IMG/VR virus record: IMGVR_UViG_3300040802_000002
Coordinates: 1-30,553 of that record
Direction: 5' to 3' (one strand)
DNA length: 30,553 nucleotides
Source: a virus
Below, in pieces: positions 6,461 to 30,553 of this stretch; position 1 is the first letter of the stretch, and the number at the start of each line of letters is the position of its first letter. The notes beneath the pieces were generated by a model, which worked only from the letters and a program-made list of their open reading frames with translations, did not search any database and was not told the origin of the DNA. The translations under genes were made by a program, and so were the position numbers.

Positions 6461-6843
6461 TAAACATCGCACGAAATACGGCTAATGATGTGGCGTTAAC
6501 CCTTACGGAAAAGGGAACGGCTACTTACTACCTCTTTAAGTTCCAATCGGATAACACAGAGGCGGTGGAGTACTGCATTGCTACGGATTCAAGCCTTTAC
6601 CCTGACCGCTTTAACAAGTTCATCATCACGGAAACGTCAACACCTGACAATCTAAATGCGGAGGTGGAACTACCAACAGAGGGGCAATGGCGGTATTTCG
6701 TTTATGCGAACTCTTCAAGTTCAAATTTAGACCCGACTGGACTGACCGAATTAGAATCGGGAATCGTGAAAGTAACGGGAACATCAACACCAGTTACCAC
6801 CTACTCAGGTGGCAACTCTAACTATGTAGTGTATGGCTCTTAA
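6457..6843 (+). CDS. Small structural protein of unknown role
   Basis: 128 aa. The start is TTG at 6457, overlapping the upstream TGA; no ATG lies near, so coupling to the upstream gene is likely. The sequence is beta-rich with the form of an immunoglobulin-like or fibronectin-like fold (GTATYYLFKFQSDNT, EGQWRYFVYANSSS, ESGIVKVTG), ending in SNYVVYGS. Bacteroidetes phages carry similar short proteins near head genes. No enzyme motif is seen. It overlaps the portal start by 11 bases. Confidence 0.55.
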   Translation: MINIARNTANDVALTLTEKGTATYYLFKFQSDNTEAVEYCIATDSSLYPDRFNKFIITETSTPDNLNAEVELPTEGQWRYFVYANSSSSNLDPTGLTELESGIVKVTGTSTPVTTYSGGNSNYVVYGS

Positions 6844-8893
6844 AATTCTAAACTTCGGAGCGCATAAAGTGCCTACCTTCAAAGAAGCAAAGGGCAAAGA
6901 TTGGATTCTCTTTGGAGACGAAGGGGAATACAAGAACCGCTATCCTGAGTACCTTCTGAACCTTTACCGCAGAAGTGCGAAGCATCACGCCATCATCAAC
7001 TCAAAAAAAGACTACGTAGTTGGTCAGGGATGGGCTGTTAACGCTGAAGGATTGGACACGATGGGGCTTGCAAGACTTCAGCAGTTCATTCAAGAGCCGA
7101 ACCAATATGAGTCTTTAAACGACATCTTGGAGAAGGTAGCACTTGATTACGAGTTATACAACGGCTTCGCGTTAGAAATCGTTTACAACCAACTGAACGA
7201 CAAGATTGCGGCTATTTATCACGCTGACTTTGCGCGTTATCGGTCAAACGAGGACGGCACGAAATACTACTATTCGGAAGATTGGAAGAAGCACAACCCT
7301 GTCGTTGAAGAAATAGATGCTTTCAACTGGAAAGAGCCAAGCGGCAAGCAGCTACTTTATGTCAAAGGATACTCTCCTGACTGCAAATACTACCCGCTTC
7401 CTACATATCTTGGGTCAACGGGTTACATTGAGTTAGACGTAGAGATTGCCAACTTCCACCTTAACGCGGTTAAGAACAACTTTGTCGGAGGGACAATCGT
7501 GTCTTTCTACAATGGAGAGCCGACTCTTGAAGAACAAGAGGAAATCGAGCGACAGATAAAGGACAAGTTTACGGGAACTGACAACGCTAACTCTATCGTT
7601 CTAAACTTTGCAGATTCAAGGGACAGAGGAGTCGAGATTCAGCAGTTGAATGGCAACGACTTCGACAAGCGTTTTGACATCTTAAACAAGACCGTACAAA
7701 GGGAAATTTATGCTGGGCATTCGGTAACTGACCCTGCACTCTTCGGAATCAAAGAGGACGGAATCTTCACGAGCAGAAACCAACTGGTAGACAGCTTTGA
7801 GTTGTTCCAAAACACCTACGTAAACAACCGACAGCAGTTCATCGAGAGGGTATTTAATGACCTTGCCGCAGTTCAAGGGTTATGGAATCGTTTGTTTATA
7901 CAAGACACAGAACCGATTAGCGTACAATTCTCAGAGTCTACGGTTACTTCTGTAATGACAGAGGCGGAAATACGTGAGAAAGTAGGGCTGCAAGTTGTTC
8001 AAACTAAGGAAGATTCTACGGTTGACAGCAAGACCAAAGATGCACAAGCTGCACTTAAAGGGTCAGTCGGTGGTGTTAGCGGTATCATTACGTTACTTCA
8101 GAACGTCAAAGAGGGTCTTATCGCTGAGAACTCCGCTATCGCTGTACTTGTTGAGTTGTACGGCTTCAGTCCTGAGATTGCAAGGTCTACAATTACGGGC
8201 GAAGTTATCCCTGAGAATGTGGCGGCAGAGATGCGAGCGGTATTCGAGAAGCAAGACGAGGACGCTATCCTTGTTGAGTACTTCAAGAACTGCGGCTCGA
8301 CTGACTACGAACCCGTAGGGAATGGCAAGGCGTTAAACTTTGAAAGCGAAACCTCCGCAAGATTACACGAGGAACTGAATAGAAAGTATTGGTTCGCTGA
8401 GATAGACCCGTTGGACACGGCTATTTTGAACATCCTAAAGGAGAATCCAGCTACTCCGTTTCTTGCGATTGCAGAACAGCTACAACTTTCAATTGAAAGG
8501 GTAATGGCTGGGCTTCAAAGACTGAACGAAGCCAACGCTATCAAGATAGCCATCGACAACGTACTGGACTCAACGCAACGAGCCGTAGAAGTAACCAAAG
8601 AAGGCGAGCGACTACTTGAGCAGGTACCACCAGTAGAGGAGGAGTTCGTTATTCGTTACGTTTACTCCAAACGACCAGAGGCAAGCGGTGCGGCTATCAT
8701 TCCAACTACGCGACCATTCTGCCGCGAACTCGTAACGGAAACAGAAGCTGGTAAGAGTTGGAAGTTGACCGAGATTCAAAACATCGGAGTAAGCCAAAAT
8801 AGAAACGTATGGATGCGAGGCGGTGGATTTTGGGGTAAATCATACCATTGCCGACACTACTGGGAGCAGAAACTTATGAAGATTAAGAAGTAA
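6833..8893 (+). CDS. Portal protein with C-terminal winged-helix-like and Cys/His extension
   Basis: 686 aa, longer than the usual 400-500 aa portal. Residues about 25-375 look like a portal core: YRRSAKHHAIINSKKDYVVG, the LDYELYNGFALEIVY segment, LDVEIANFHLNAVKNNFVGG and EIYAGHSVTDPALFG, with the DNA-facing region later. Residues about 525-575 form a probable helix-turn-helix (LDTAILNILKENPATPFLAI, AEQLQLSIERVMAGLQRL). Residues about 605-680 carry RPFC (C630), WMRGGGFW and CRHYW (C673, H675), a motif set I associate with minor head / MuF-like C-termini in Bacteroidetes phages. No separate minor head gene is present, so this part may replace it. It overlaps both neighbours. Confidence 0.8.
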   Translation: MALKILNFGAHKVPTFKEAKGKDWILFGDEGEYKNRYPEYLLNLYRRSAKHHAIINSKKDYVVGQGWAVNAEGLDTMGLARLQQFIQEPNQYESLNDILEKVALDYELYNGFALEIVYNQLNDKIAAIYHADFARYRSNEDGTKYYYSEDWKKHNPVVEEIDAFNWKEPSGKQLLYVKGYSPDCKYYPLPTYLGSTGYIELDVEIANFHLNAVKNNFVGGTIVSFYNGEPTLEEQEEIERQIKDKFTGTDNANSIVLNFADSRDRGVEIQQLNGNDFDKRFDILNKTVQREIYAGHSVTDPALFGIKEDGIFTSRNQLVDSFELFQNTYVNNRQQFIERVFNDLAAVQGLWNRLFIQDTEPISVQFSESTVTSVMTEAEIREKVGLQVVQTKEDSTVDSKTKDAQAALKGSVGGVSGIITLLQNVKEGLIAENSAIAVLVELYGFSPEIARSTITGEVIPENVAAEMRAVFEKQDEDAILVEYFKNCGSTDYEPVGNGKALNFESETSARLHEELNRKYWFAEIDPLDTAILNILKENPATPFLAIAEQLQLSIERVMAGLQRLNEANAIKIAIDNVLDSTQRAVEVTKEGERLLEQVPPVEEEFVIRYVYSKRPEASGAAIIPTTRPFCRELVTETEAGKSWKLTEIQNIGVSQNRNVWMRGGGFWGKSYHCRHYWEQKLMKIKK

Positions 8894-20474: not shown

Positions 20475-20999
20475 GTGAAAGAGCAAGCGGCAATCGACCT
20501 ACTATCTGACCAAGAGTTATATGAACTCGCGCAGAAGCTATGCAATTGCCCTGACGACCTTATACAAGAGGTGGTTCTTCTTTTACTGGAGATGCCCGAA
20601 GAGAAATGGCAACAGATAAACGAAGGCGGATACTTGAGGTTCTACATCGTGAGGACGATGATGACAATGGCGACCAGTAAACGCTCCAGCTTTTCAAAAC
20701 TCTACGACCTCCACAACCATAAGAAGGTAGACCACGAGCGGGAAGATTACGACTGGGATAAGGAAAACGACATTACCCTTTTAGAGATTCTAATCGAGGA
20801 ACTTCATTGGTACGACAAGGAGGTTCTTAAACTATGGCTGGAAGAAGGCAGCTACCGAAAGGTAGGCAAGAAGGTAGATATACCTTATAAGTCAATTGGA
20901 AACACAGTTAATAAAGCACTTGAACAACTTAGAGACAACTACTATGCTATACATCTTGAGCGCATTATCCGCGAGCGTTGTCGCTTACCTTTGGATTGA
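20475..20999 (+). CDS. Sigma-70-like regulator
   Basis: 174 aa from GTG at 20475. Residues about 12-75 resemble sigma region 2 (DLIQEVVLLLLEMPEEKW, YLRFYIVRTMMTMATSKRSS); residues about 100-155 resemble region 4 with its helix-turn-helix (LLEILIEELHWYDKEVLKLW, EEGSYRKVGKKVDIPYKSIG). The conserved acidic/aromatic segments of a full sigma factor are not clear, and the protein is short like ECF-type sigma factors. It could redirect host RNA polymerase to late promoters. It lies just before the terminase/tail block. Confidence 0.65.
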   Translation: MKEQAAIDLLSDQELYELAQKLCNCPDDLIQEVVLLLLEMPEEKWQQINEGGYLRFYIVRTMMTMATSKRSSFSKLYDLHNHKKVDHEREDYDWDKENDITLLEILIEELHWYDKEVLKLWLEEGSYRKVGKKVDIPYKSIGNTVNKALEQLRDNYYAIHLERIIRERCRLPLD

Positions 21000-21521: not shown

Positions 21522-21713
21522 ATGAGGCAAAACGAAAAGCATGAGAACTACGGGCTTTACATTACCCAAAACACCTACCAAATGAAATGGTATTGTTTTG
21601 ATAGGAAAGCCGCAGACGATTACTGGAATGGCAAACCATGCAAGAAAGCCGTAGGAGCAACACAACAAGAAGCACTTTCAAACTACAAGAATGGAAAGTT
21701 TACAGATAAGTAA
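21522..21713 (+). CDS. Small protein of unknown function
   Basis: 63 aa, Tyr/Lys/Asn-rich (NYGLYITQNTYQMKWYCFDR). It starts right after the previous stop (TAGATG) and overlaps the ParB-like gene by 23 bases. No recognisable domain. Confidence 0.45.
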   Translation: MRQNEKHENYGLYITQNTYQMKWYCFDRKAADDYWNGKPCKKAVGATQQEALSNYKNGKFTDK

Positions 21714-22401
21714 AGTCAGACCCAACTCGGACAATCCGAGATACATAAAGGACGAGAAATTCAAGAAGCTGGTTCAATCGCTTCGTGACTTTCCTGAGAT
21801 GGCTAACGTCCGTCCGATAGTGGTCAATACAGAGATGGTTGTGTTGGGCGGTAATATGCGACTCAAGGCGATGCAAGAAGCTGGCTGGTCAGAAGTACCC
21901 GTTCAGGTTGTGGACTGGAGCGAAGAGAAACAGCGCGAGTTCATCATAAAAGACAACGTAGGCTTCGGAGAATGGGACTGGGACGAACTGGCTAATACTT
22001 GGGATGCGGAGGAGTTGGACCGCTGGGGTTTGGATGTGCCAAAAGAAGAGGAACAAGACGAGGCTTACACGACTAAAATTGAAAGCCCTATTTATGAACC
22101 AAAAAACGAACGCCCAAATGAATCAGAACTATACGATACAAAAGTTTACGATAGACTGATTAAAGAAATTGATTCGTCAACGTTAGACGATAAAGAAAAG
22201 GAGTTTTTAAAATTAGCGGCAACTCGCCATATTGAGTTTGACTATCGCAAAATAGCTGACCTCTATGCTCATTCAAGTAATGAACTACAAAGCCTAATGG
22301 AGAACTCAGCACTTGTAATAATCGACTATGACAAAGCGATTGAACTTGGTTTCGTTAAGTTATTCCACGAATTAGAAACACTTGCGGAACTGGATGACTG
22401 A
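21691..22401 (+). CDS. ParB-like nuclease-domain protein with distinct C-terminal domain
   Basis: 236 aa. N-terminal ParB/Srx domain: NSDNPR (12-17), RPIVVNTEMVVLGGNMRLKA (41-60, with the GGNMR motif for nucleotide binding), VPVQVVDWSEEKQREFIIKD (69-88), ending near WDAEELDRWGLD. From about residue 125 a different domain begins (YTTKIESPIYEPKNERPNES, ...FDYRKIADLYAHSSNELQSL, ENSALVIIDYDKAIELGFVK), of a kind I remember next to base-modifying glycosyltransferase genes. Bases 21961-22060 are 55% GC, 22081-22180 only 33%, so the C-terminal part was probably acquired with the next gene. Confidence 0.7.
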   Translation: MESLQISKVRPNSDNPRYIKDEKFKKLVQSLRDFPEMANVRPIVVNTEMVVLGGNMRLKAMQEAGWSEVPVQVVDWSEEKQREFIIKDNVGFGEWDWDELANTWDAEELDRWGLDVPKEEEQDEAYTTKIESPIYEPKNERPNESELYDTKVYDRLIKEIDSSTLDDKEKEFLKLAATRHIEFDYRKIADLYAHSSNELQSLMENSALVIIDYDKAIELGFVKLFHELETLAELDD

Positions 22402-23245
22402 TTTTGTTGTTTTTATATTAACTAACGGCAGACCAAATAACGTTCATACGGCAAGAAGTTTGCGTAATCACGGATACACGGGAAAAATAATTTTAGTTAT
22501 TGATGACGAGGACAAAACGGCAGAAGAGTATTTAGATAAATTCGAAGATGTTGAGATTTTCAGCAAGAAGGAAATCTCTAAAGAGTTTGATGAAGCCGAT
22601 AATTTCGATGACCGTAGGGCGATTGTTTATGCAAGAAATGCTTGTTTTAAAATAGCTGAAAAGCTGGGGGCTAAATACTTTGTTCAAATGGATGACGACT
22701 ACACTCGTTTTGAATATCGAGTATACACTAAAGAAAGACAGAAGCCTTCTTTTATTGCAAATTTAGATTCTGTATTTGCTGCTTTGCTCAACTTTTATAA
22801 GTGTAGTAATTTCTCAACTATTTCAATGGCTCAAGGCGGAGACTTTATCGGAGGCAAAAATAATAGAATGGCAAAGCGACCGACTTTGTTTCGAAAGTGT
22901 ATGAACTCTTTCATATGCTCAACACATAGACCGTTTAAATTTGTTGGAAGAATCAATGAAGATGTTAATACATACGTAAATAAGCAGAGTATTGGCTTGT
23001 TAATGGGTACTATACCGTTCGTATCTTTAGTTCAGAACCAAACTCAATCAAATAAGGGTGGTATGACTGAGTTATACTTAGATAACGGAACTTACGTTAA
23101 ATCTTTTTACTCTGTAATTTTCAGCCCGTCAAGTGTTTACATCAAACCGATGGGCGATAAGCATCTAAGGTTACACCATCACGTTAAATGGGACAATGCA
23201 GTACCAAAATTCATCGCTGAAAAACACAAGAAAACAGAGACATAA
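22394..23245 (+). CDS. TAGT-like glycosyltransferase, probable DNA base modifier
   Basis: 283 aa from the ATG at 22394 (a TTG at 22382 is less likely). Features of a GT-A fold as in the TET/JBP-associated glycosyltransferases: FVVFILTNGRPNNV (4-17), KIILVIDDEDKTAEEYLDKF (31-50), YARNACFKIAEKLGAKYF, and the DDD-containing metal/nucleotide-sugar motif QMDDDYTRFEYR (98-109). C-terminal His cluster RLHHHVKWDN. These enzymes are predicted to glycosylate hydroxymethylated bases in phage DNA. It overlaps the ParB-like gene by eight bases and is A/T-rich. No hydroxylase or hydroxymethylase gene is visible in the window. Confidence 0.7.
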   Translation: MTDFVVFILTNGRPNNVHTARSLRNHGYTGKIILVIDDEDKTAEEYLDKFEDVEIFSKKEISKEFDEADNFDDRRAIVYARNACFKIAEKLGAKYFVQMDDDYTRFEYRVYTKERQKPSFIANLDSVFAALLNFYKCSNFSTISMAQGGDFIGGKNNRMAKRPTLFRKCMNSFICSTHRPFKFVGRINEDVNTYVNKQSIGLLMGTIPFVSLVQNQTQSNKGGMTELYLDNGTYVKSFYSVIFSPSSVYIKPMGDKHLRLHHHVKWDNAVPKFIAEKHKKTET

Positions 23246-23247
23246 CA

Positions 23248-23643
23248 GTGGCGAAAGAAGACAACCTAAAACCCTTCAAGAAAGGCGAGAGCGGCAACCC
23301 TAAAGGGCGACCGAAGAACGTGGAGACGCTGCTAAAGGAACATTTCTTGGACGAGCATAACGTCAAGCTATCGAAGGGGCAAGTGCAAGACATCATAAAG
23401 AACGTACTCGGAAAATCAAGAAGCGAGTTGGTGGAGTTGGCAAAGAATGACCAGCTACCTTTTTGGATTGCTCTGATAGCGAAGAAAGCACAAAGGGATT
23501 ACGAGAAAGGAAGCATCCACATTCTCGATGTGTTATTCGATAGGGTCTATGGCAAGCCAAAAGAAGAAGTAGAGCAGACCGTTAACGGTGGAAAGCCTGA
23601 CAAGATTGAGATTGTCATCCATCGACCTGACAAAACCAAGTAA
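23248..23643 (+). CDS. terS: Terminase small subunit-like protein (DUF5681-type)
   Basis: 131 aa from GTG at 23248. The N-terminus KPFKKGESGNPKGRPKN is the DUF5681 motif seen in many phage small terminase-like proteins; the rest is helical and charged (GQVQDIIKNVLGKSRSELVE). It sits immediately upstream of the large terminase, the standard terS position, so it likely recognises the packaging site. Codon use differs from the preceding glycosyltransferase. Confidence 0.7.
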   Translation: MAKEDNLKPFKKGESGNPKGRPKNVETLLKEHFLDEHNVKLSKGQVQDIIKNVLGKSRSELVELAKNDQLPFWIALIAKKAQRDYEKGSIHILDVLFDRVYGKPKEEVEQTVNGGKPDKIEIVIHRPDKTK

Positions 23644-23664: not shown

Positions 23665-24849
23665 GTGAAAATTGAAGGAACTGGCGTATTTGATGACCTC
23701 TGGGCTGCCCTTAATGATAAATCCATTCGGGGAATTGTGCTTGAGGGTGGCTCACGTTCCTCGAAGACGTGGAGCATCTGCCAAGCTATCTACCTTACAG
23801 GACTACAAGAACCGAAGAGAATCGCAATTGCGAGGTTTCGGAGGACGTGGATTAAACCGACCGTACTCGACACGTTCAAGAAGGTACTCCAAAGCCTTGA
23901 GGTATGGGAGGATGAGGCGTTCAACAAGACCGATTTAATCTACTCCGCTCACGGGTCAACGTTTGAGTTCTACGGGCTTGACGATTCGCAGAAGCTACAC
24001 GGTATCGAGACCGATTACTTTTGGCTCAACGAGGCGATTGAAACCAGTAAGGATGACTTCGACCAACTGGAGCAGCGTTGTAAGGGCAAGTGGATTCTCG
24101 ATTACAACCCTTCCACCGACGAGCATTGGATTTACGATAACGTCTTGAAACGGGACGATGTGGTCCTGATTCACTCCACGATGCTGGACAACACCTTCCT
24201 GGACCAGCACATCCGGGACAAGATTAACTCCTACGAACCAACACCTTTTAATGTATCACGAGGCACGGCTGATGAATACAAGTGGAAGGTCTACGGGTTA
24301 GGGCAAAGGTCAAGAAGAGAAGGTGCGATTTACGAGAACTGGCAAGAGGTCAAAGATTTTCCAACGGGCTACAAGTGGAAAGCCTACGGGCTTGACTTCG
24401 GGTTCACTAACGACCCGACCGCACTCGTGGAGGTACTCTACCAAGATGGCAAGCTGTGGGTTCGTGAGGTGCTTTACGAAACAGGGTTAACCAACGCGGA
24501 CATAGCGAGAAAGTGCGGACTTCAGCGAAGTGATGAGATTATCGCAGACTCCGCTGAACCGAAGAGCATTGAGGAAATCCGAAGGGCTGGTTTCAGAATC
24601 CGACCAGTCGCCAAAGGTCAAGACAGCGTAAGGTCAGGTATCGATAAGCTGAAATCTGTGCAGATTATGGTACATCAAGACTCGGTCAACATCATCCGAG
24701 AGTTGAGAAACTACGCTTGGAAACGAGATTACAAGACCAACGCAGTAACCAACCAACCCGAAGATGACAATAACGATGCACTCGATGCCGTGAGATATGT
24801 AGCTACGGAGAAGCTGAAGGCGAACGCTGGCAAGTATACCCTTCGGTAA
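23665..24849 (+). CDS. terL: Terminase large subunit
   Basis: 394 aa from GTG at 23665. ATPase: Walker A GGSRSSKT (28-35), Walker B DYFWLNEA (117-124, with Asn before the catalytic Glu), coupling motif LDYNPS (145-150). Nuclease (RNase H fold) acidic residues: D244 in YGLDFGFTND, D295 in IIADSAEP, D371/D374 in NNDALDAVRY. The GGSRSSKT form and length fit PBSX/Terminase_3-type enzymes. It packages DNA into proheads together with the portal (6833-8893). The portal is unusually far away, across the tail module. Confidence 0.95.
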   Translation: MKIEGTGVFDDLWAALNDKSIRGIVLEGGSRSSKTWSICQAIYLTGLQEPKRIAIARFRRTWIKPTVLDTFKKVLQSLEVWEDEAFNKTDLIYSAHGSTFEFYGLDDSQKLHGIETDYFWLNEAIETSKDDFDQLEQRCKGKWILDYNPSTDEHWIYDNVLKRDDVVLIHSTMLDNTFLDQHIRDKINSYEPTPFNVSRGTADEYKWKVYGLGQRSRREGAIYENWQEVKDFPTGYKWKAYGLDFGFTNDPTALVEVLYQDGKLWVREVLYETGLTNADIARKCGLQRSDEIIADSAEPKSIEEIRRAGFRIRPVAKGQDSVRSGIDKLKSVQIMVHQDSVNIIRELRNYAWKRDYKTNAVTNQPEDDNNDALDAVRYVATEKLKANAGKYTLR

Positions 24850-26561: not shown

Positions 26562-27850
26562 TGGCTATCTTCCTTACTCAGAACGGAGAACCTGAGCAGT
26601 ACGGGCTTGTCTACAATGACAACGCCTATGTAATCAAAACAACCAACTACACGCCAACGGTTCGGTTTAGAGTTGCAATCCTTCCAATTGACTACCCAAT
26701 TTCTGCGGCTATTGGTCAGGTCAGAGTTTACCCTACTCGTTCAAATGATGGGCAATATTTAGATAGAGCGTTCTTCGACCCTTCACGGTTTCTTCAGTCT
26801 TACGTCAAAGGTCAGGTGGACATAAAGGGCGCAAACCATAATGGGTTTTACGTGTCTAATCAGATGCACAAGGAGTACTATTTAGCCATTCAAGAGGAGG
26901 AGAAAGATGCGAGTGGTGTCTATCAGAATGGCGACCTATTCATCTCGAAGGTTAAGAGCGTGTGGAATGGGGTACGTAACGAAATAGAATGGCTGGACTT
27001 CGACTACACCGACTACACCGTAAACAACACGCCAAGTGTTACTAAGAAGTTTCTGACCGATTCTCCGCGTACAATCCGAATAGACTCAAACCAAAGCTAC
27101 CACCTTTACTTCATAGCTAACGAAAGGTTCGGGGCTTACCAGTACAATATCAAGGCTTACTCAGGCTATAACGGTACTGGGTCGCTTTTAGCGGATGGCA
27201 TCGTAGACAACAATATCTCGGTCGCTGACTCTTGGGATAAGATTTACTTCCGTATACCAGTCGGAACTTACGACATAGGGAACATAGACCCAGCACTCTA
27301 CACCGACTCACTACTTGGCTCGACACCTTCAACGGCTCTTGTTGGTGCTGCAAGCTACACCATCCACTTAGAAGATAACACCAATCAACAAACATCAGAG
27401 GCTTTCACCTTCAACGTCAACCAAACTTGTTCAAAGTACAACGAGGTGCGGGTTCATTGGCTTAACCGTTTGGGCGGCTACGATGCGTTCAACTTCTACA
27501 TGAAGTCCATCCACACGACAGACATCAAGAAAGACAAGTACGACCAGCAGCACCATGATTGGACAGGCAACACATACAGCTATGACAAGCAAGCAAGAGG
27601 AACGACAGAATACAACGTGGCACTAAACAAAAAGGTTACGGTTAACACAGACTATTTGAGCGAGGACGAAAGCCTTTGGCTGGAAGATTTGGCAACATCT
27701 CCGAGCGTATACATCGAGGAAGGTAACGAACTGATAGCGGTTAACATTGACCCGCGAAGAATCCAACGCAAGACGAGCCTTAATGATAAGTTGATGCAGT
27801 ACACTTTCGAACTGAATTACTCACTATCAAATCGCAGACAACGTGGTTGA
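26561..27850 (+). CDS. Distal tail (Dit-like) protein
   Basis: 429 aa. Beta-rich; contains FRVAILPIDYPISAAIGQVR, FNVNQTCSKYNEVRVHWLNR then LGGYDAFNFYMKS (about 285-315), a motif typical of distal tail proteins in Bacteroidetes phages, and a C-terminal LMQYTFELNYSLSNRRQRG. No catalytic motif. It probably forms the hub between tail tube and tip. It overlaps the next gene start by eight bases. Confidence 0.65.
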   Translation: MAIFLTQNGEPEQYGLVYNDNAYVIKTTNYTPTVRFRVAILPIDYPISAAIGQVRVYPTRSNDGQYLDRAFFDPSRFLQSYVKGQVDIKGANHNGFYVSNQMHKEYYLAIQEEEKDASGVYQNGDLFISKVKSVWNGVRNEIEWLDFDYTDYTVNNTPSVTKKFLTDSPRTIRIDSNQSYHLYFIANERFGAYQYNIKAYSGYNGTGSLLADGIVDNNISVADSWDKIYFRIPVGTYDIGNIDPALYTDSLLGSTPSTALVGAASYTIHLEDNTNQQTSEAFTFNVNQTCSKYNEVRVHWLNRLGGYDAFNFYMKSIHTTDIKKDKYDQQHHDWTGNTYSYDKQARGTTEYNVALNKKVTVNTDYLSEDESLWLEDLATSPSVYIEEGNELIAVNIDPRRIQRKTSLNDKLMQYTFELNYSLSNRRQRG

Positions 27851-30553
27851 GGTTAGAATAGAGGGGCGTAAATTAGACGTATTTGAGGGGTTCGATTTCT
27901 CCTTCAACTACGGCATTGCCGACATACGCAACCCTGAGAAGAGAAGCACGGAGTACTCCAAGACCATCAAATGCCCAGCTACGAAGAACAACGACGAACT
28001 CTTCGGGCATATATACGACGTTAACATCTCAAACAATCACGATGCTAACACTACTAACATTAGCGTTAATTTCAACCCTAATAAGAAAGCTGAAGCGCGA
28101 GTAATAGCCGATGGGGTGGAGGTCATGGCTGGAGTTGTCCAACTCCGCAAGATAGTTCAGAAGGGACACGCCTACACATATGAGGTGGTGTTTATCGGAA
28201 AGCTGCTAAACATCTTTTCGGTACTTGGCGACAAGGAACTTAATGGGGTCGATGAGAATGGAAACCCTTACATAGATTTCAGCGACCTTAACCACGCATA
28301 CAACTACGCCAATATTACCAGCAGTTGGAACTTCACGGATGACTACGTTTACCCGATGTTGGACAATGGCACGAGTTTCGAATACAATGGGTCAGGTGAG
28401 CGCATTTACGGAGTAACTCAGTTCAAGCCATTCTTGAAACTAAAAAGCGTTATCAATCGAATCTTCGACTTTGCTGGGTTCAGTTATACCAGTTCATTTT
28501 TTAACTCAGCATTATTTGAACGGTTGATTATTGGCGAAGTAAAAGAGAACCTTCTGTCGGATGCTCAAGCCGACCTCCGCAACGCAGAGGTAACGGTCAC
28601 AAGTCCAGACGTTCTTGATTTGACGTACCTTACTTTCAGCGCACTTAATGGCTATACCCACCGTTTCGATTTTTCGACAGTTGTTTATGATGCTGGCAAT
28701 AACATAGACATAAACCAAGACATATACTTCACTTCATTCGAGTCGGTGTCTACGGTTACCAGCGTTGTAGACTACGAAGTAACGCGAACAAAAAGGACAT
28801 TCTTTAGCTGGTCTGCTGCGGGTGGAGTCCCGATTACATACCGTTATGAGATTTTACCGAATGGTAATTGTGATGTATATAATCATTTGACTGGCGCGCA
28901 ACTTCAAAGCAATGTCTCAACAAACCAAACGCTTACAACATTAACTGGAGACCTTGATGCGGGAGTTGATTCGGACGCGGAACTTCAATACATAATTGAC
29001 AACTGTATTGCGAGCCAATCATATAGGGACTCTGTTGGGCTTGCGTTTACTGGTTTCGATTGTCTTTATGGTTCGATGGCTGCCCCATTATTTAAACACA
29101 ACATCAAGCGGTTCGACAGTATTCAAGGGTATGTTAACGAGAACTCTACGGACTTCGTTCTATTTCCAAACATGGCTCTCGGTGCAACTGTAAGCCAAAC
29201 ATCTTACGCGAGTGCCGAAAGCGTTAACATAAATCAAGGGAACTACCTATATACAGAACTCTTTATTCCAAACGTATTCGTTACAACTGGTTTCTTTGGT
29301 GGTGATGGGGTGTTTACCGATGTGATTTTTGACGAGTACGAAATGGAGGCTAACGGCTTCTTCAGAGTCACGGCTGAAAACAACACTCTACTGGAGCATC
29401 AAGATGTTGACTTCAATGCCATCGTCCCAATTGTTGAGATGAGCGAATTGTTCACTTCGGTGCTTCAGATGTTCAACCTTTATGTTGAGGTCGACCCGAA
29501 CAACGAGCGAAACCTACTGATTGAAACAAGGGACACATTCTACTCTCAGGGTGGAACAAAGGACTGGACGTATAAGCTGGCAAGGGACAAAGACATAACG
29601 CTTGAACCGCTCGGAGTTCTAACCGACCGCGAATACATTTACACCTACTCGGAAGATGGGGACTATTATAACGAACGCTACCAATCCAACAGAGGACACG
29701 TTTACGGAAGGGCAAGAATCGAAATAGATAACGACTTCGTACAGAGTTCAAAGGAAACCGAAATAATATTTTCGCCTACTCCGCTCATAAACGACAATCC
29801 ATCGAGCCGAATAATAGGAGCAATTTACGACTCAGACATTGAGGACGGTTTTAAGCAGACGGACTCAAATGTCCGAATCTTGCAATGGGGAGGAATGCTT
29901 CCAAGTAATCCGCAATGGGTTTTTGCTTACTCCAACGCTAACCAGCAGAATATACCTTTGTTGGCAGCTTTCAACACCTACCCTTATGCGGGACATTGGG
30001 ACAACCCGATAACGCCAACGATAGATATCAACTTCGGGCTAACCTATGAATTATATTACCAAGCTAATGCATTCACGGGAACGCTCCAAGTAACTAACGC
30101 GAACCTTTACAACATTTATCACCGCAACTATATCAACGAGGTAACGGACAAAAACAGCAAGGTAATGACTGCAATGTTTTACCTTGAACCAACGGACATC
30201 AACACCTTAGATTTCCGCGACCAAATCATAATAGATAACAGTTACTGGAGGCTCAACAAAGTAATGAACTACAACCCTTTCAAGGAGGGGTTAACGAAGG
30301 TTGAACTCATCAAGATAAAGGAGGCGGTTACCTTCAAAAAGTCGGACAGGAGCCTTAACGCTGGTGGTTATTTAGGAAAGGAAAAGATGCCATCTCCTTC
30401 CACCGAAATCAAGACCAACGGAAACAAATACCCGCCATTTCAGGGCAAGGTGAGCGGAGCGGAGAATAACGTAGGGCAGAGCGTTACAGCTTTTAAAGTG
30501 GTCGGAAGTCGTAACACTATCGGGGAAGGCTCGAAGAACATTACCATATTCGG
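27843..30553 (+). CDS. Large tail-tip protein, N-terminal and central part (continues past window end)
   Basis: The frame is open from after a stop at 27813-27815; I chose GTG at 27843, which overlaps the upstream stop by eight bases. The window encodes 903 codons; joined with 1-654 it would total about 988 aa. N-terminal segment VVEVRIEGRKLDVFEGFDFS and NPEKRSTEYSKTIKCPATKN, followed by a long beta-rich region; the last 133 codons duplicate those at 1-398. This is the likely Tal/tail-tip protein that contacts the host. Sites with SDAELQYIIDNC and FTGFDCLYG contain Cys but no clear enzyme motif. Confidence 0.75.
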   Translation, partial: MVEVRIEGRKLDVFEGFDFSFNYGIADIRNPEKRSTEYSKTIKCPATKNNDELFGHIYDVNISNNHDANTTNISVNFNPNKKAEARVIADGVEVMAGVVQLRKIVQKGHAYTYEVVFIGKLLNIFSVLGDKELNGVDENGNPYIDFSDLNHAYNYANITSSWNFTDDYVYPMLDNGTSFEYNGSGERIYGVTQFKPFLKLKSVINRIFDFAGFSYTSSFFNSALFERLIIGEVKENLLSDAQADLRNAEVTVTSPDVLDLTYLTFSALNGYTHRFDFSTVVYDAGNNIDINQDIYFTSFESVSTVTSVVDYEVTRTKRTFFSWSAAGGVPITYRYEILPNGNCDVYNHLTGAQLQSNVSTNQTLTTLTGDLDAGVDSDAELQYIIDNCIASQSYRDSVGLAFTGFDCLYGSMAAPLFKHNIKRFDSIQGYVNENSTDFVLFPNMALGATVSQTSYASAESVNINQGNYLYTELFIPNVFVTTGFFGGDGVFTDVIFDEYEMEANGFFRVTAENNTLLEHQDVDFNAIVPIVEMSELFTSVLQMFNLYVEVDPNNERNLLIETRDTFYSQGGTKDWTYKLARDKDITLEPLGVLTDREYIYTYSEDGDYYNERYQSNRGHVYGRARIEIDNDFVQSSKETEIIFSPTPLINDNPSSRIIGAIYDSDIEDGFKQTDSNVRILQWGGMLPSNPQWVFAYSNANQQNIPLLAAFNTYPYAGHWDNPITPTIDINFGLTYELYYQANAFTGTLQVTNANLYNIYHRNYINEVTDKNSKVMTAMFYLEPTDINTLDFRDQIIIDNSYWRLNKVMNYNPFKEGLTKVELIKIKEAVTFKKSDRSLNAGGYLGKEKMPSPSTEIKTNGNKYPPFQGKVSGAENNVGQSVTAFKVVGSRNTIGEGSKNITIF
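30156..30553 (+). repeat. Right copy of divergent terminal repeat
   Basis: Aligns to 1-398 without gaps. Diverged over its first 291 bases (24 mismatches, 22 without effect on the protein) and identical over the last 107. Both copies are in the same reading frame of the tail-tip gene. Confidence 0.95.

Follow-up and report, generated by a model that had tools for sequence, protein, structure and literature searches.

Introduction

TET/JBP-TAGT hypermodification systems, reportedly described by Iyer et al. in 2013, contain a glycosyltransferase of the TAGT family. Mammalian GREB1, which is linked to protein modification, has been placed in the same family. The phage gene ggt of T2/T6 is taken to add a second sugar, glucose, to the glucosylated hydroxymethylcytosine (hmC) of phage DNA (PMC13216743, PMC13390438). 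T4 alpha-glucosyltransferase, which likewise glucosylates DNA, is a binding partner of the sliding clamp gp45, and this contact is not the main determinant of its share of glucosylation (PMC13216743). Many phage ParB-like domains are linked to DNA-modifying enzymes, in a role stated to be unknown (PMC12783734).

The window analysed here, an IMG/VR virus record of 30,553 bases, carries a TAGT gene (ORF B) behind a gene (ORF A) for a ParB_N domain joined to a C-terminal domain (C-domain). With T6 Ggt, a phage enzyme that scores 35.8 bits against PF20691, ORF B shares this Pfam family; however, T6 ggt adjoins the dCMP hydroxymethylase gene, the T6 stretch that was searched showed neither C-domain nor ParB, and T6 ggt gave no match to the profile of the present TAGT subfamily. 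T4 alpha-glucosyltransferase binds the clamp, and stand-alone relatives of the C-domain carry a putative clamp-binding motif; the T4 enzyme, in contrast, belongs to PF11440, works on hmC and makes its clamp contact itself rather than through a partner protein. Phage ParB-DNA methyltransferase fusions have a related ParB domain and a phage DNA-modifying context (PMC12704722, PMC12783734), but a methyltransferase where the module has the C-domain and a separate TAGT. From TET/JBP-TAGT systems the module differs in that no TET/JBP was found near it or in the records, by a search that also matched no control genome. It shares ParB_N with ParABS partition, but ORF A has no HTH match and parA is missing from the conserved neighbours. 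We propose that ORF A and ORF B probably form a two-component, DNA-tethered phage DNA-glycosylation module whose acceptor is neither hmC nor hydroxymethyluracil (hmU).

Gene layout of the window

Both genes lie on the plus strand (Table 1) and are followed by a DUF5681 protein and then the large terminase, so that the pair adjoins the packaging genes. Purifying selection was found on both (dN/dS 0.06-0.12 against near relatives; 0.07-0.12 for ORF A), and with 562 relatives in IMG/VR this places the pair far beyond chance. The TTG of ORF B is probably not the real start; ATG 22394, giving 283 aa, was preferred because it yields an 8-nt overlap with the ParB stop (22399-22401) and because most homologues start there.

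Table 1. Features of the module and its neighbours, in window coordinates.
Feature	Position	Strand	Evidence
ORF A, ParB_N + C-domain protein, 236 aa	21691..22401	+	PF02195, PHROG 620, dN/dS
ParB/Srx-fold domain, proposed DNA tether	21694..21960	+	Pfam; ParB/Noc/Srx structures
P-motif G54-N-M-R57 in ParB domain	21850-21861	+	R57 in 38/42 rows
C-terminal domain, TAGT-subfamily partner	22060..22374	+	alignments A1, A3; reciprocal searches
ORF B, TAGT glycosyltransferase, 287 aa from TTG	22382..23245	+	PF20691; AlphaFold; Foldseek
DDD motif, predicted metal/nucleotide-sugar site, TAGT residues 104-106	22691..22699	+	alignment
N192-E193-D194, candidate catalytic base motif of TAGT	22955..22963	+	alignment
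DUF5681 / small-terminase-like protein, neighbour	23248..23643	+	PF18932 E 4e-10
Terminase large subunit	23665..24849	+	PF04466 4e-22, PF17288 5e-18

Elsewhere in the window, a sigma-factor-like ORF (20475-20999; PHROG 1740, 3e-4) lies upstream of the module; near relatives, and also some of the more distant loci, have homologues in the corresponding position. The portal protein (6833-8893) has an AsnC-type winged helix in its C-terminal part (PF13404, residues 524-564), an unusual combination. A 903-aa open frame (27843-30551) runs past the record end; the virus record is therefore incomplete at that end.

The two proteins of the module

ORF B had been assigned to TAGT in an earlier note on this DNA, and the assignment held. 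ORF B matched PF20691 at E 1.4e-32 (113.8 bits; cut-off 27.5) and PHROG 842 at 4e-65, with QMDDDY at residues 102-107 and NGRPNNV near the N-terminus. DDD is invariant in 46 aligned TAGT rows and occurs in 195 of 212 TAGT ORFs; N192-E193-D194, invariant in the same 46 rows, is a candidate catalytic base motif by analogy with GT-A enzymes. The AlphaFold model (pLDDT 79.5, pTM 0.83) was compared with the PDB using Foldseek. GT-A enzymes led (COLGALT1, SunS, glycogenin, chondroitin polymerase), with E down to 9e-6 and low TM-scores of 0.3-0.46. These model-based matches support the TAGT fold and say nothing for the substrate: hits to generic GT-A enzymes at such TM-scores do not decide between a protein or cell-wall role and a DNA role. 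Sequence search of solved structures with the TAGT family profile gave no match. The PHROG 842 name, 'beta-glucosyl-HMC-alpha-glucosyltransferase', has been copied onto RefSeq phage records of this TAGT subfamily; no hmC pathway was found in the records so named.

ORF A consists, as previously noted, of a ParB part and a second domain. Residues 2-90 matched ParB_N (PF02195, E 5e-8), the whole length matched PHROG 620 (9e-32), and structural comparison bore out the ParB half, which matched ParB, Noc, Srx and SerK structures. The P-motif arginine R57 is conserved in 38 of 42 rows, giving a ParB_N with NTP-binding motif; in other ParB-fold proteins, mutation of this arginine abolished nucleotide binding (PMC12704722). 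The domain resembles the ParB of phage DNA methyltransferases (PHROG 498, 2.6e-26; PADLOC type II MTase, 2e-11). Pfam and PHROG gave no HTH match in ORF A, which has the C-domain in its place. No parA family was found among the conserved neighbours of the module, and no other ParABS feature (parS) was seen for it.

The C-domain (~105 aa) is predicted to be helical and has invariant Y126, Y135, R179, Y192, E204 and D212 (alignments A1 and A3). It has no Pfam family. Searches gave no consistent or confident Pfam or PDB match, and Foldseek matched the ParB half only.

Pairing of the C-domain with TAGT

The TAGT query retrieved the 562 relatives in IMG/VR. Eighty TAGT loci were kept, and the ParB/C-domain gene is directly upstream wherever the contig has room. 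For the reverse search only the C-terminal 105 residues (alignment A3) were used as query. This search led to a TAGT in 79/79 viral loci and 36/36 bacterial genome loci, nearly always overlapping or adjoining the C-domain gene. Pooled, 200 loci have both C-domain and TAGT and four have TAGT only; some contigs are shared among these loci, and 112 TAGTs are distinct at 95% identity (viral and phage-isolate set). Three of the four exceptions are contig-end cuts, and in the fourth (L167) the C-domain DNA is present with no intact ORF called. The functional pairing proposed in the earlier note is thus borne out by 200 loci, and it is the C-domain, not ParB, that this TAGT subfamily has as its obligate partner. 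No account of the pair was found in the literature searched.

Vibrio pv27 was tried as a partnerless TAGT and rejected, as a stand-alone C-domain is encoded at L086:7465-7884. A very divergent ParB/C-domain and TAGT pair adjoins the terminase in Porphyromonas phage phage005b (L088:7124-8906; TAGT 26% identity).

Exchange of the proposed DNA tether

A fusion to ParB_N occurs in 119 of 165 distinct C-domain proteins; a further 39 have just a short leader (15-37 residues), and 7 are cut at the contig start. A clamp-type motif is present in 35 of the 39 leaders (QxxLF in 29, such as QINLF, QLNMF and QFDLF; QxxLx[IM]F in 6) and in 0/119 ParB-fused forms; shuffled leaders gave an expectation of 1.2 for the pentapeptide. 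The beta sliding-clamp binding consensus is QL[S/D]LF, and E. coli UmuC has QLNLF (PMC3716654, PMC4549789). Judged from its sequence, the leader motif of the stand-alone C-domain relatives, as distinct from the window protein, is a beta sliding-clamp binding motif. When the ParB and clamp-motif states are mapped onto the TAGT tree, no fewer than 8 switches are required, and well-supported branches make 5 of these unavoidable. Given the ParB-less relatives with a clamp motif and these repeated switches, ParB looks like an exchangeable DNA tether rather than the source of the chemistry. The idea that the ParB domain supplies the chemistry was accordingly rejected as the main reading, since ParB is missing from 39 of the 165 proteins and the putative clamp-binding peptide stands there in its place. 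The C-terminal domain, for which the same had been suggested, may supply it. Literature coverage was partial, and within it no published mention of the clamp-motif exchange was found.

The large terminase is a conserved neighbour of the ParB form. It was found within 4 kb in 67/83 ParB-form versus 2/15 clamp-form loci, with query terminases that were themselves drawn from ParB-type loci, for which reason the association is retained in weak form. In an unbiased terminase family search the clamp form was mostly located 1.3-8 kb upstream of the terminase. An association test of the tether forms with replication genes was circular and was discarded.

Putative donor genes and the search for base-preparing enzymes

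Thirteen loci have a gap between the C-domain gene and TAGT, and in 12 of them the insert encodes a histidine phosphatase joined to a cytidylyltransferase-like domain (PF00300+PF01467). At the 13th (L130:3107-5477) a CofD-like/HAD protein and a MobA-like NTP transferase are encoded between a clamp-type C-domain gene and TAGT. By their annotation, the inserted genes could serve to make an activated sugar locally. Six genome loci have TAGT in two or three tandem copies (PF20691 confirmed for three), as would be expected if more than one sugar were added.

The window record was searched for TET/JBP, thymidylate-synthase/hydroxymethylase and C5-methylase families, and none was found, in agreement with the earlier statement that no recognisable base-hydroxylating enzyme is present; the TET search matched no control genome. 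PF00303, the family of thymidylate synthases and hydroxymethylases, had no match in 36 of 37 records, among them six isolate genomes with the ParB form; many of the IMG/VR records are fragments. The one positive record is Vibrio pv27, and its enzyme resembles ThyA, not gp42; records with the ParB form yielded no enzyme of the dCMP/dUMP hydroxymethylase type. TET/JBP matched 0/37 records in the same search that matched no control genome, and C5-methylase gave partial matches in 5. No candidate handle enzyme appears among all the annotated genes of Lactobacillus c5, jlb1 and a Rac-type coliphage. Since the known handle enzymes were not found with the module, and T6 ggt adjoins dCMP hydroxymethylase, hmC or hmU is an unlikely acceptor. 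The options left are that the C-domain makes or exposes the acceptor, that the sugar is placed directly on an unmodified base, or that the acceptor is other than DNA.

Proposed function and alternatives

In the proposed mechanism, TAGT would move a sugar from a nucleotide-sugar donor, while its obligate partner, the C-domain, would present the DNA base or prepare it. The tether on the C-domain, a ParB-type NTP-binding domain here and a beta sliding-clamp docking peptide elsewhere, would bring the pair to newly made phage DNA before packaging, presumably after replication. The sugar-coated DNA would then be guarded against host nucleases. This reading draws on the TAGT membership shared with T6 Ggt, the reciprocal pairing and the tether exchange, and further on the methyltransferase-like ParB, the donor-type genes, the tandem TAGTs and the clamp precedent of T4 alpha-glucosyltransferase. 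Counted against it were the nearest solved folds, which are protein glycosyltransferases (COLGALT1, SunS, glycogenin), together with GREB1, and the failure of the subfamily's own profile to detect the T6 enzyme. We also know of no hydroxylated base in E. coli or Lactobacillus DNA, which leaves the acceptor unexplained. On balance DNA is rather likely to be the substrate, and the DNA-modification reading of the earlier note is upheld with DNA as the inferred acceptor. More tentatively, and somewhat short of an even chance, the pair would glycosylate a base without hydroxymethyl, either on an amino or ring position directly or on a handle made by the C-domain.

The nearest solved folds, glycogenin included, would also suit a protein target: the C-domain itself, glycosylated, like glycogenin, at an invariant Tyr (Y126, Y135 or Y192), or a protein brought within reach by the tether (terminase, portal or host replication protein). 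The lack of a known DNA acceptor hydroxyl and the membership of GREB1, linked to protein glycosylation, point the same way. Repeated exchange of a DNA tether between ParB and clamp peptide, however, makes little sense for such a target, the adjoining terminases are from several families and offer no shared one, and the ParB resembles that linked to DNA methyltransferases; we consider a protein target unlikely. We give little credence to a T-even- or TET-like route in which TAGT sugars a hydroxymethylated base that some unrecognised enzyme of phage or host provides, even though the characterised phage TAGT, that of T6, uses glucosylated hmC as substrate and is encoded beside dCMP hydroxymethylase (PMC13216743). 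The sole PF00303 enzyme (Vibrio pv27) is unlike gp42, the gene lists of c5, jlb1 and the Rac-type coliphage offer no handle enzyme, and no TET was found by the search that matched no control genome. A host-derived hydroxymethylated precursor, one of the sources considered in the earlier note, is unlikely for a module found in viruses of E. coli, Lactobacillus, Nocardia and Haloarcula, and the occurrence of the module in both E. coli and Haloarcula, hosts very distant from each other, argues against the hydroxymethyl route in general. Very improbable, finally, is a partition, regulatory or packaging-signal ParB that merely neighbours a cell-surface-modifying glycosyltransferase. The ParB_N fold and terminase adjacency would allow for it, but no ParA, HTH or parS feature was seen, ParB is dispensable in many relatives, C-domain and TAGT are paired in 200/200 loci, and there is no link to surface-polysaccharide genes.

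Overall, then, the earlier note stood with respect to TAGT, the pairing, the missing hydroxylating enzyme and DNA modification, and did not with respect to ParB chemistry; a host precursor is unlikely. If DNA glycosylation is correct, a large class of phages and prophages, the Rac-type of E. coli included, glycosylates its DNA outside the hydroxymethyl-pyrimidine route; if a base without hydroxymethyl is the acceptor, the chemistry would be one so far undescribed for DNA modification, with interchangeable sliding tethers. The exchange also suggests that phage ParB-like domains on DNA-modifying enzymes may be DNA tethers interchangeable with beta-clamp docking.

Distribution and the K-12 remnant ynaK

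The module is common to many unrelated phages, those of E. coli, Lactobacillus, Nocardia and Haloarcula among them; hosts and sources comprise Bacteroidota, Bacillota, Pseudomonadota, Verrucomicrobiota, Kiritimatiellota, Nocardia, Vibrio and the archaeon Haloarcula. Of the 5,426 complete E. coli genomes searched, 992 have the TAGT, and in 867 (~1 in 6) 80% or more of the gene is present. In E. coli the module is located in Rac-type prophages, between trkG and the small-terminase gene.

No account of ynaK function was found in the literature searched. In K-12 MG1655 Rac (L098:6378-6981), ynaK (b1365; 87 aa) is the deletion-truncated ParB of the module and matches residues 1-86 of the full-length ParB/C-domain protein with 98.8% identity. 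It shares the N-terminal ParB residues with the module, but C-domain and TAGT are gone: an 11.6-kb deletion took both, together with terminase and head genes. The proposed function, if true, would explain ynaK. K-12 ydaY was considered as a TAGT remnant and rejected for want of a match. The PGAP/RefSeq label 'ynaK incomplete' in many E. coli is an annotation artefact; the full 263-aa ORF is open in 7/7 loci read.
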